Positions 19,597-56,756 of a DNA stretch of 64,000 nt are shown here, piece after piece. Position 1 is the stretch's first letter; each line of letters opens with the position of its first letter. Source of the stretch: Shinella curvata. GTDB taxonomy: Bacteria; Pseudomonadota; Alphaproteobacteria; Rhizobiales; Rhizobiaceae. A program made the translations under genes and the position numbers. Below the pieces are notes generated by a model. The model had not been told where the DNA came from, ran no database searches, and saw only the letters and a program-made list of their open reading frames with translations. The stretch spans positions 62,001 to 126,000 of the forward strand of contig NZ_JALJCJ010000009.1 in assembly GCF_022899935.1 (NCBI RefSeq), given 5' to 3'.

Positions 19597-19992
19597 TCAA
19601 CGACCCGATTCATCGATTCCCAGATCATTGCGGAACTGCAGTTTGGCCAGCTGCGACTCGGCGACAAGGACCAGCCCGTCTGGCTCGTAGGCGAGGTCTA
19701 TCTCCCCACAGGCGCTGAGGCTGGTGGCGATCAGACGGGAACCGAACCCTGTGCGCTCGCTTGCTGCGTTCGAAATGGGCGGTCCACCCGTCTCCCGCCA
19801 CGAAGCTACGAGGATTTCAGCCTTGTCGCGCCGCTCAATGCTCCATGTGATCTCGACGCGCCCGTCGGCATTCGAAAGCGCGCCGTATTTCGCGGCATTA
19901 GTGAGAAGCTCATGGAAGGCCATGGAAAATGACAGCGCGGCTTGCGGCCCCAATTCGACGTCAGGGTTGTCGGCCGTAGTTCCCCCATTCAT
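19597..19992 (-). pseudogene. Truncated HWE histidine kinase (ATPase domain only)
   Basis: A 131-residue frame holding only the C-terminal catalytic part of an HWE kinase: LGPQAALSFSMAFHELLTNAAKYG (written here as two pieces, LGPQAALSFSMAFHEL and LTNAAKYG), WRETGGPP, and TGFGSRLIATSL. The phosphoacceptor domain and any sensor are missing, and nothing in the 230 bases upstream restores them in another frame. It is best read as a gene remnant, although an expressed ATPase fragment cannot be excluded. Confidence 0.7.
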
Positions 19993-45915: not shown

Positions 45916-46146
45916 TTACAGGATCTTGCGGCGTTGCCAGGCTTTGTAGGGTGAAAGCGCCTGACCTGGAAACCGTCGTTCGATTTCGGTTTCCACTAGC
46001 TGGATGAAAGCCAGCGCCCTTTCGCCTTCCTCCTCCTGCTCGCTGATGCCTTCGAGTTGCGACATCGCCTCGAAGACCTCGTCATCGGTCATCGTCGCAA
46101 GAGCGGTCTCAAATGTGGCTGGGTCGCTCAGCTTATCGTTCGCCAT
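45916..46146 (-). CDS. Hypothetical protein (76 residues)
   Basis: An acidic helical protein, MANDKLSDPATFETALATMT, DDEVFEAMSQLEGISEQEEE, then ALAFIQLVETEIERRF. AGGAG precedes the ATG by 8 bases, which supports expression. It converges on the DUF982 gene. No family or function recognised. Confidence 0.65.
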   Translation of the reverse strand: MANDKLSDPATFETALATMTDDEVFEAMSQLEGISEQEEEGERALAFIQLVETEIERRFPGQALSPYKAWQRRKIL

Positions 46147-46269: not shown

Positions 46270-46860
46270 TTAGCTGAGAAGCTTGCCTTCCCTGTCGCGA
46301 TGGATGGTTTCCATGAGGCGGCCCAGCCAGACATTGATCGAAACGTCGTGGGGCTTCGATCGCGCATGGTCTATTGCTTCTTGTAACGTAAGTTCGACCA
46401 GACGATCGGCGGCATGGGGATCGTTGAGATGGAGGCGCGCCGCCAAACGAAGCTGAGGAAGCGCCGAGAATACGGTCTCTTCGCGCGAGCCCTTCGCAGC
46501 AGGGCCTGGATCGAGGGCAAAACGGAGCGCGCTGTACACGGTTTCTGCCTCAGCCGGTTTCGACAAATAACTGGCATAGCGAAAACGGTCGGGAATCGCG
46601 ATGTCGTTGCACCCAGTGTAAAAGACAAAAGGAATGTGCCGATTGGCGAGCTGGTCGGCGAACGGGAAGACGTACGTGTCGTCTAGACGAATATCGAGAA
46701 TTGCGGCATCGGCATCATCAAGGTAGTCGGCCGCCCGTTCTATGGAAGACGCCGGGCCAAGGACGGTTGCGCCGAGCTTGACGAGAAAGCGTTCAAGCTC
46801 GGTCGCGATAAAATACTCGTCCTCGACGATGAGAACTCTGGAGCCACTGACGATTGTCAC
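46270..46860 (-). CDS. Receiver domain fused to a sigma-region-2-like C-terminus
   Basis: A 196-residue protein from the GTG at 46860 (AAGGA six bases upstream; ATG at 46866 and 46893 are alternatives). Residues about 8-120 are a receiver: VLIVEDEYF, phosphoacceptor in AAILDIRLDD, FYTG and YLSKP. The C-terminal part, LPQLRLAARLHLND, ADRLVELTLQEAIDHA and VNVWLGRLM (written V-S-I-N-VWLGRLM in the protein), lines up with region 2 of the EcfG protein encoded nearby (IPALRAFARTF, DDLVQETLFRAL, SWLFTIM). PhyR, the known stress anti-anti-sigma factor, has a sigma-like part before its receiver; here the order is reversed and region 4 is absent. It lies beside nepR-like and ecfG genes and has an EcfG-type promoter. 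Confidence 0.8.
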   Translation of the reverse strand: MTIVSGSRVLIVEDEYFIATELERFLVKLGATVLGPASSIERAADYLDDADAAILDIRLDDTYVFPFADQLANRHIPFVFYTGCNDIAIPDRFRYASYLSKPAEAETVYSALRFALDPGPAAKGSREETVFSALPQLRLAARLHLNDPHAADRLVELTLQEAIDHARSKPHDVSINVWLGRLMETIHRDREGKLLS

Positions 46861-46925: not shown

Positions 46926-46950
46926 AACCTTGAGAGGGACCGATTGTTCC
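46926..46950 (-). promoter_or_regulatory. EcfG-type promoter for the receiver-sigma2-like gene
   Basis: Minus strand GGAAC (46950-46946), 16 bases, GGTT (46929-46926), 66 bases before the GTG at 46860. Confidence 0.65.
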
Positions 46951-46969: not shown

Positions 46970-46994
46970 GGAACAGTTCTGGCCGATTGGAGTT
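46970..46994 (+). promoter_or_regulatory. Weaker EcfG-like promoter upstream of the NepR-like gene
   Basis: GGAAC (46970-46974), 16 bases, AGTT (46991-46994); the -10 lacks the usual C/G before GTT but fits the looser GGAAC-N18-TT rule. It lies 80 bases before the ATG at 47075. Confidence 0.4.
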
Positions 46995-47074: not shown

Positions 47075-47224
47075 ATGGCCGAACAGGAAGCCGCAAAACA
47101 ACCCGATAAAGCGGTCGAAGACCTGATGAAAGAGATTCGTCGAGAATCGATGCCGCACAGGATGCTCGAACTCGCCAAGGCGCTCCAGGCAGCGCTCGAT
47201 AAACGCGACGACAGTATCAAGTAG
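47075..47224 (+). CDS. NepR-like small anti-sigma factor
   Basis: A 49-residue charged protein with GTGGAGG upstream of the ATG. The central segment KEIRRESMPHRMLELAKALQ follows the NepR helix pattern (R-x-x-x-x-x-x-P-x-R-(F/M)-L-(D/E)-L-(L/A)-x-x-L), which in the general stress response binds EcfG sigma factors and is displaced by PhyR. Its 3' end overlaps the 3' end of the sigma gene by 8 bases on the opposite strand, unlike the usual nepR-ecfG operon. The call is by pattern on a very short protein; an unrelated small helical protein is possible. Confidence 0.55.
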   Translation: MAEQEAAKQPDKAVEDLMKEIRRESMPHRMLELAKALQAALDKRDDSIK

Positions 47225-47747
47225 AATGGTCCAAAGGGTTGCCGCCCAACTCCTGTGCCAAAGCTTCCCGGGCTCGATTCAAGCGGCTTTTGACCGTGCC
47301 GACCGCGCATCCTATGACACCTGCCGCCTCCTCGTAACTGAACCCCAACCCGGCGACCATCACGATGATCTGACGCTGCTCGCGCGTCAGACGTGATAGC
47401 GCCTTCTTCAGGTCCGTTTCTGCCATCGCCCACTCCTGGGATGGCGACACGGCGAGCTTCAAGGATATGCAGTCAGACGCACCCGGTTGTTCGCGAACCC
47501 TTCTGCGATATTGCGTGCAATAGGTATTGCGCATGATCGTGAAGAGCCACGATTTGAGGCTTGTGCCGGGGCGAAACGTCTCGATGCTACGAAGCGCCCG
47601 GAACAGCGTCTCCTGAACCAAGTCGTCGCCATCAGTCGCGTTGATCGTAAACGTGCGGGCGAAGGCTCTGAGTGCGGGAATGAGATCGACGACCTGTTGG
47701 CTCAGAGCGGCGCATTCTTCTTCCGCGGCGTGCATCGGTCGGGCCAT
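47217..47747 (-). CDS. EcfG/RpoE2-type general stress ECF sigma factor
   Basis: A 176-residue ECF sigma factor from ATG 47747. Region 2: LIPALRAFARTFT, DGDDLVQETLFRALRS, FRPGTSLKSWLFTIMRNTYC; region 4: LTREQRQIIVMVAGLGFSYE and EEAAGVIGCAVGTVKSRLNR. The wording is that of the EcfG group, which directs RNA polymerase to GGAAC-N16/17-CGTT promoters in the alphaproteobacterial general stress response. Many matching sites surround it, but none lies directly upstream of this gene, so it may not be self-activated. It converges on the NepR-like gene. Confidence 0.88.
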   Translation of the reverse strand: MARPMHAAEEECAALSQQVVDLIPALRAFARTFTINATDGDDLVQETLFRALRSIETFRPGTSLKSWLFTIMRNTYCTQYRRRVREQPGASDCISLKLAVSPSQEWAMAETDLKKALSRLTREQRQIIVMVAGLGFSYEEAAGVIGCAVGTVKSRLNRAREALAQELGGNPLDHST

Positions 47748-47858: not shown

Positions 47859-47883
47859 GGAACGTCTCACGGATCGCGTGGTT
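47859..47883 (+). promoter_or_regulatory. EcfG-type promoter for the KGG-repeat gene
   Basis: GGAAC (47859-47863), 16 bases, GGTT (47880-47883), 48 bases before the ATG. Confidence 0.65.
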
Positions 47884-56366: not shown

Positions 56367-56756
56367 ATGACGAAGTCGAGTAAACCACTATCTGGAAGGA
56401 CATACCTCATCCTCGAAGATGAGTATCTGATTGCGTCTGATCTGTTAATCATATTAGAGGGCGCTGGTGCAAAGGTTTACGGACCGATTTCCGATGTGCG
56501 CAACGCGCTAGAGATTCTCAAAGGAACGAGCTTGACGCTCGACGCTGCAGTACTCGATATCAACTTGGCGGGTGATATGGTTTACCCAATAGCGTCGCTC
56601 CTCATGAAAAGGGGAACTCCCTTTATCTTTGCGACTGGGTATGAATGCTCACCGGTTCCTGAGGAGTTCAAGCAGGCGCCGTGTTTATCAAAGCCGACTT
56701 TGGAGGCAGATTTGATTTCTGCGCTTTTAAGCGTGTCGGCGGCATTGCCGAACTGA
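56367..56756 (+). CDS. Single-domain response regulator
   Basis: A 129-residue receiver domain from ATG 56367 (GAGGGA upstream; ATG 56340 in frame). YLILEDEYLIASDLLIILEG, phosphoacceptor in AAVLDINLAG, IFATGY and LSKPTL are all present. No output domain. It is of the type found with HWE and PAS kinases, and is similar in length and style to the receiver half of the 46270 protein. No kinase gene is adjacent. Codon use here is somewhat more A/T-rich than in neighbours, as in the region up to 57.6 kb. Confidence 0.88.
   Translation: MTKSSKPLSGRTYLILEDEYLIASDLLIILEGAGAKVYGPISDVRNALEILKGTSLTLDAAVLDINLAGDMVYPIASLLMKRGTPFIFATGYECSPVPEEFKQAPCLSKPTLEADLISALLSVSAALPN

Follow-up and report, generated by a model that had tools for sequence, protein, structure and literature searches.

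A receiver followed by a sigma-region-2-like domain beside an accessory EcfG in Shinella curvata: a candidate sigma-mimic partner switch distinct from PhyR

Can a response regulator in which the receiver precedes half of a sigma-factor mimic do work like that of PhyR, and for which sigma factor? The question is raised by a gene that we call RR-s2 (receiver plus sigma-2-like response regulator), found in a stretch of 64,000 nucleotides from Shinella curvata (contig NZ_JALJCJ010000009.1, positions 62,001 to 126,000; the window). We propose, with a probability of roughly 55%, that RR-s2 acts as an anti-anti-sigma factor for the adjoining accessory EcfG, under the control of phosphorylation, and was built independently of PhyR; its binding partners, its dependence on phosphorylation and the sign of its effect are what we infer from the comparisons below.

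The coding part of RR-s2 (46273-46860, minus strand) opens with a GTG preceded by a good ribosome site. Pfam Response_reg (PF00072) matches residues 9-112 at 25.9 bits against a cut-off of 30.2; PhyR_sigma2 (PF22029) covers residues 133-183 at 20.4 bits (E 5.4e-4, cut-off 27). Both scores lie below the curated cut-offs, and relatives were therefore needed as support; the functional receiver residues are kept in them (Table 1). A Pfam search for a sigma-4-like part (PF22233) gave no match at E <= 1, which sets RR-s2 apart from ECF sigma factors with their sigma-2 and sigma-4 regions. Because a fold search with the model of the whole protein listed receivers only, the C-terminal domain was modelled separately; folded alone, its predicted fold is that of sigma-2, and fold and sequence together place EcfG/ECF15 nearest. 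Little of the chain follows the third sigma-2 helix, and most of the DNA-binding end of region 2 (under the usual region names) is therefore missing. A first-pass annotation, made from the letters of the window, had described a receiver followed by a mimic of sigma region 2 alone and suggested structure prediction and profile comparison of the C-terminal part. Domain matches, relatives and the fold of the isolated domain uphold that description, and the suggested comparison returned sigma-2 homology and a predicted sigma-2 fold. The C termini of RR-s2 proteins (window 46273-46281) read mostly L-L/I/M-N/H/S/D or GPN after the third helix.

RR-s2 is widely distributed. Among 199 genomes of the same family, 9 (its own included) have a match spanning both domains. 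Across 397 genomes of the order, a profile of the C-terminal domain picked out at least 11, S. curvata among them, with E <= 5.2e-18; EcfG proteins begin at 4.2e-15, and the EcfG of the window, at 1.2e-13, falls below the RR-s2 scores. In this order-wide search no more than 14 candidates were scored in any one genome, and the prevalence figures are thus lower bounds. Both searches combined (2 genomes in common) give at least 18 genomes with RR-s2, in families f1, f11, f16 and f50. A plasmid of Shinella zoogloeoides carries a copy 91% identical to that of the window, and further named plasmids with RR-s2 come from Martelella, Mesorhizobium, Ensifer and, in the Rhodobacterales, Roseivivax and Paracoccus (sigma-2 profile E 9.6e-12 to 2e-13). 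On these Roseivivax and Paracoccus plasmids (L218, L219, L220), RR-s2 adjoins a CheR-type gene or a second receiver. On a plasmid of Rhizobium sp. ACO-34A (L221:3492-4081), the receiver and sigma-2-like parts are two annotated genes with a 1-base overlap. The window itself holds another receiver, at 56388-56726 on the plus strand, that is 43% identical to the RR-s2 receiver.

We then considered the genes with which RR-s2 is encoded. In the window, in S. zoogloeoides and in several relatives, not all, these are an EcfG and a member of a remote NepR-like family that replaces nepR; the setting given in the first-pass annotation, with a NepR-like gene and an EcfG as neighbours, accordingly holds for the window and many relatives and is missing from some. 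The EcfG gene of the window is convergent with the NepR-like gene, with an 8-base overlap. Of the 8 relatives found first, 5 have an EcfG within the same 19-kb stretch, and one locus (L077) has a four-gene row of EcfG, NepR-like gene, RR-s2 and kinase. The small-protein family of the 47075 gene shares the core P.RLL.LA..LQ.AL. A NepR-like motif, written after its five occurrences had been noticed, is present in 4/8 relatives and the window, and in 0/6 other stretches of the same genome. A profile seeded with 11 members chosen by that motif matched 23 of 12,255 frames at E <= 0.021. Twelve of these were the seeds plus one near-copy; six of the other 11 adjoin EcfG, two adjoin RR-s2, one lies 5 kb from RR-s2, and the last two are a second copy in L145 and the canonical NepR2 of S. 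curvata itself (E 5.8e-5). Leave-one-out runs, with near-copies removed too, recovered 11/11 seeds (E 7.5e-10 to 6.7e-4).

By this profile, a NepR-like gene lies within 1.6 kb of RR-s2 in 13 of 18 loci (L151 among them just at E 0.02), and 17 of the 18 whole genomes have a match at E <= 0.1; 19 of 21 matches at E <= 1e-6 in these genomes, most of them profile seeds, lie within 30 kb of RR-s2. Four of nine named plasmid loci have one (L214, L216, L217, L222); in the three annotated plasmids among those with a profile match, the small genes are called hypothetical proteins. Among the 199 same-family genomes, NepR-like genes at E <= 1e-6 occur in 8/9 with RR-s2 versus 19/190 without, a count that is partly circular because 5 of the 8 genomes supplied profile seeds and a sixth has a seed from the same genus. 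The 19 loci without RR-s2 (L223-L241) carry two-helix forms, and in 16 of them the retrieved stretch includes an EcfG, which suggests EcfG as a partner of the NepR-like proteins. Two further small genes were noted. A 51-aa gene after RR-s2 in L220 resembles NepR by eye; downstream of RR-s2 in the window (45919-46146, minus strand), a 76-aa gene kept in S. zoogloeoides (WP_306035963.1) has no notable Pfam or NCBIfam match.

In the CnrY-CnrH complex, as excerpted, helix 1 of CnrY binds sigma-4 and helix 2 binds sigma-2 (PMC7406223), and the complex is described in a passage elsewhere as superimposing on NepR-PhyR (PMC4598750); our assignment of helices to sigma domains in the NepR-like proteins follows from this complex. 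The helix-1 segment is present in 22/22 NepR-like genes with EcfG as nearest partner and in 3/11 beside RR-s2 on the same strand, all three from one genus (Fisher p 1e-5, rows not independent). Five genes fit neither group (two score as helix-1 positive; two more, L143 and L216, look intact by eye), L145 in the group of 11 is ambiguous, and five genes in the group of 22 lie 4.7-8.3 kb from EcfG. The groups omit L224, L237, L240, L243, L244 and L245 (stretches without EcfG; helix 1 by eye in 6/6), as well as L073, the second L145 match and the weak L154 and L155 matches. Taken with the CnrY contacts, these counts suggest that the gene for the sigma-2-only mimic is usually accompanied by one for a partner that has helix 2 alone. 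The NepR-like gene of the window is of the two-helix kind and divergent from RR-s2.

PMC8103513 describes the DAED motif as essential to holoenzyme formation. The last acid of the motif is missing from 27/27 RR-s2 proteins (18 from the genomes, 9 from plasmids, with R, H, F, T or L in its place) and from 22/22 PhyR (A or G), and it is kept in 42/42 ECF sigma factors taken from the same stretches and from the S. curvata genome; for this count, seven receiver proteins and L221 were grouped by hand, and two unmatched motifs were read by eye. The first acid is also absent in RR-s2 and PhyR, and it is D or E in 38/42 sigma factors; the other four include the canonical EcfG of S. curvata (Q). Suggested as a mimic marker by 16 pattern-caught EcfG, the first acid was dropped after the count of 42, and because some ECF sigma factors also lack it, the last acid alone serves as the marker. 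As in PhyR, the sigma-2-like domain of RR-s2 is probably degenerate for RNA polymerase binding.

The likeness to PhyR does not extend to descent. With the RR-s2 sigma-2 profile, the median score is 54 bits for 16 EcfG versus 16 bits for 22 PhyR, and the nearest solved structures to the receiver are SdrG (5ieb, E 8.6e-15) and 2lpm (E 8.3e-14), with PhyR receivers at E 0.0004-0.013. A circularly permuted PhyR was rejected as the origin, the sigma-2 part being nearer EcfG and the receiver nearer SdrG. RR-s2 reaches 44.4 bits with the NCBIfam PhyR model NF006623 (cut-off 240), with the best stretch within the receiver, and in place of the N-terminal sigma-like domain with sigma-2 and sigma-4 that defines PhyR it has just PF00072 and PF22029, in reverse order; by sequence it falls outside PhyR. 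The phrase "PhyR in reverse order", used in the first-pass annotation, fits the probable working of the protein and does not fit its ancestry. In a tree of few columns and long branches, PhyR separates with full support and RR-s2 forms one clade in just 18% of bootstraps; with so few columns, such branches and that value, a single origin of RR-s2 is neither shown nor excluded.

An EcfG-type promoter had also been read ahead of RR-s2 at the outset, and the pattern is indeed there (Table 1); GGAAC-N15-17-[CGT]GTT precedes 11/18 RR-s2 genes (in L145 just 7 bases before the gene) versus 6.8% of random stretches from the same loci. It also precedes 8/16 NepR-like genes, a count that was not used because start positions are rough for several. 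The window holds 18 EcfG-type sites versus 3.5 expected by shuffling, an excess suggestive of a general-stress regulon island. One of these sites (47859-47883, plus strand) precedes a small gene like an S. zoogloeoides "general stress protein". In 8/18 RR-s2 loci, L077 counted, the stretch also encodes a large kinase of the L077 kind, of which the window matches just the C-terminal part, at 164-820 and 19672-19974. Plasmid annotations near RR-s2 include "CheR family methyltransferase"; partly on these, we take the L077-type kinases to be CheB/CheR proteins with an HWE-type end.

Table 1 Features of the RR-s2 locus (positions in the window).
Feature	Position	Strand	Details
RR-s2 (receiver + sigma-2-like response regulator gene)	46270..46860	-	196 aa; GTG start; stop 46270-46272
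Receiver domain of RR-s2, residues 1-118	46507..46860	-	E13, D14, D56, K101 invariant in 17/17 RR-s2
Predicted phosphoacceptor Asp56 of RR-s2	46693..46695	-	invariant across aligned relatives; role as expected from the receiver family
Sigma-region-2-like domain of RR-s2, residues 130-196, conserved tail	46273..46473	-	helices 130-145, 148-164, 175-189
EcfG-type promoter ahead of RR-s2	46926..46950	-	GGAAC-N16-GGTT; sequence pattern
Near-match to EcfG-type promoter ahead of NepR-like gene	46970..46994	+	A before GTT; by reading; fails stricter pattern
Remotely NepR-like small protein	47075..47224	+	49 aa; both helix segments kept; start as annotated in S. zoogloeoides copy; frame opens GTG 47063
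Accessory EcfG-type ECF sigma factor	47217..47747	-	Sigma70_r2 61.7 bits; Sigma70_r4_2 56.3 bits

In the mechanism that we favour, the NepR-like protein would hold EcfG in unstressed cells, with helix 1 on sigma-4 and helix 2 on sigma-2. Under stress, a histidine kinase would phosphorylate Asp56, and the phosphorylated receiver would expose the sigma-2-like domain; this domain is probably unable to bind RNA polymerase and would instead take helix 2 of the NepR-like protein. EcfG would thereby be freed, and could raise RR-s2 from the EcfG-type promoter of RR-s2 itself. We more tentatively suggest, at slightly less than even odds, that RR-s2 belongs to a second sigma-mimic partner switch of independent origin: an SdrG-type receiver would have taken up the sigma-2 half of an EcfG and, like PhyR, lost a polymerase-binding acid, and "half NepR" proteins reduced to the sigma-2-binding helix would have come to match it.

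Several findings weigh against the proposed anti-anti-sigma role. Canonical PhyR is present in 18/18 genomes and could serve the accessory EcfG, and a sigma-2-only mimic would contact just half of a two-helix NepR. A NepR-like gene is absent within 1.6 kb of RR-s2 in 5/18 loci (L070, L071, L073, L076, L137) and, by profile, in 5/9 named plasmid loci (L215, L218-L221); one genome (G084) has no match even at E <= 0.1, and the 19/190 same-family genomes counted above have NepR-like genes where RR-s2 was not detected. The kinship of the small proteins to NepR is remote in sequence. Pfam NepR (PF18557) misses 17/17 of them at E <= 1, and the 47075 protein is not among the Pfam NepR matches of its own genome at E <= 10; a PDB sequence search reached NepR chains at E 1.1 and 1.7, mixed with unrelated chains, and the Pfam, NCBIfam and PDB sequence searches assigned no family. 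Against the canonical proteins of S. curvata, the profile gives E 5.8e-5 for NepR2 and E 2.5 for NepR1 by hmmsearch; a comparison with canonical NepR by hhalign gives E 3.4e-5, probability 72. The helix-1 regular expression, finally, was written after part of its rows, which are not independent, was known.

The main rival, which we consider unlikely, is a brake in which NepR-like proteins bind RR-s2, canonical PhyR or both, and not EcfG, so that the main stress response is tuned down (anti-anti-anti-sigma) and RR-s2 acts as a phospho-controlled sponge. There is precedent in Methylobacterium extorquens, where, in the part of PMC4814048 that bears on this, two NepR paralogues bind PhyR but none of the EcfG proteins tried, and overexpression of one of them makes cells less resistant to stress. 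The helix-1-less forms beside RR-s2 (8/11) look too short for a whole EcfG, and an EcfG-type promoter would fit negative feedback as well; against a brake, the NepR-like copy of the window has both helix segments, and the EcfG in 16/19 loci without RR-s2 points to EcfG as partner. Another, improbable reading makes RR-s2 an extra PhyR that antagonises canonical NepR for the main EcfG, with the small neighbour unrelated. The ubiquity of canonical PhyR and the two canonical phyR-nepR pairs of S. curvata agree with it, but the neighbours of RR-s2 are NepR-like genes and an accessory EcfG rather than canonical nepR, and RR-s2 has sigma-2 only, whereas canonical NepR has both helices. We give very little credence to a functionless relic, even with the weak sigma-2 family matches of the window copy and the separate annotated genes in ACO-34A: compared with the S. 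zoogloeoides copy, both the whole gene and its C-terminal domain show a dN/dS of 0.14 (a figure with few changes behind it), and RR-s2 is kept across two orders. Just as far-fetched is a sigma decoy, also raised in the first-pass annotation, whose sigma-2-like domain would bind RNA polymerase or -10 DNA in competition with EcfG; the loss of the last DAED acid disfavours it, as does a chain that lacks most of the DNA-binding end of region 2. Of the three roles named in that annotation, anti-anti-sigma factor, decoy and feedback inhibitor, the decoy is the one that these observations disfavour.

A search of the literature within one PMC collection turned up no protein described as having a receiver and then a sigma-2-like domain, and PhyR is called a unique response regulator in an excerpt of PMC3892343. 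If the anti-anti-sigma reading is true, RR-s2 represents a widespread, partly plasmid-borne PhyR-like switch with reversed order, half a sigma mimic and often half a NepR. Anti-anti-sigma mimicry would then have arisen more than once, and half of the NepR-PhyR interface would be enough for a working switch, revealing a minimal interface. RR-s2 would also offer an answer to the open question of how non-canonical EcfG paralogues are controlled; for one, ecfG2 of R. etli, the same excerpt places no response regulator or anti-sigma gene nearby (PMC3892343). The small NepR-like genes concerned escape the Pfam NepR model.

Among known systems, PhyR resembles RR-s2 in joining a receiver to a sigma-2-like domain without the last DAED acid, in adjoining EcfG and a NepR-like gene, and in having an EcfG-type promoter; RR-s2 differs in its reversed order, in having no sigma-4-like part, and in that its receiver and sigma-2 part are each closer to other families. 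The small proteins share with NepR and the M. extorquens paralogues their size, a NepR-like core and genomes with extra EcfGs; their signature is LA..LQ.AL, whereas the two canonical NepR of S. curvata have LLEKLD, and several, unlike canonical NepR, lack helix 1. The closest solved receivers are single-domain response regulators of the SdrG kind (presumably the group known as Sma0114-type), which have no output domain where RR-s2 has a sigma-2-like one; SdrG-like receivers are also found in several RR-s2 loci. EcfG/ECF15 sigma factors share the sequence and fold of sigma-2 and are the closest source of the RR-s2 domain, from which sigma-4, most of the DNA-binding end of region 2 and the last DAED acid are gone.
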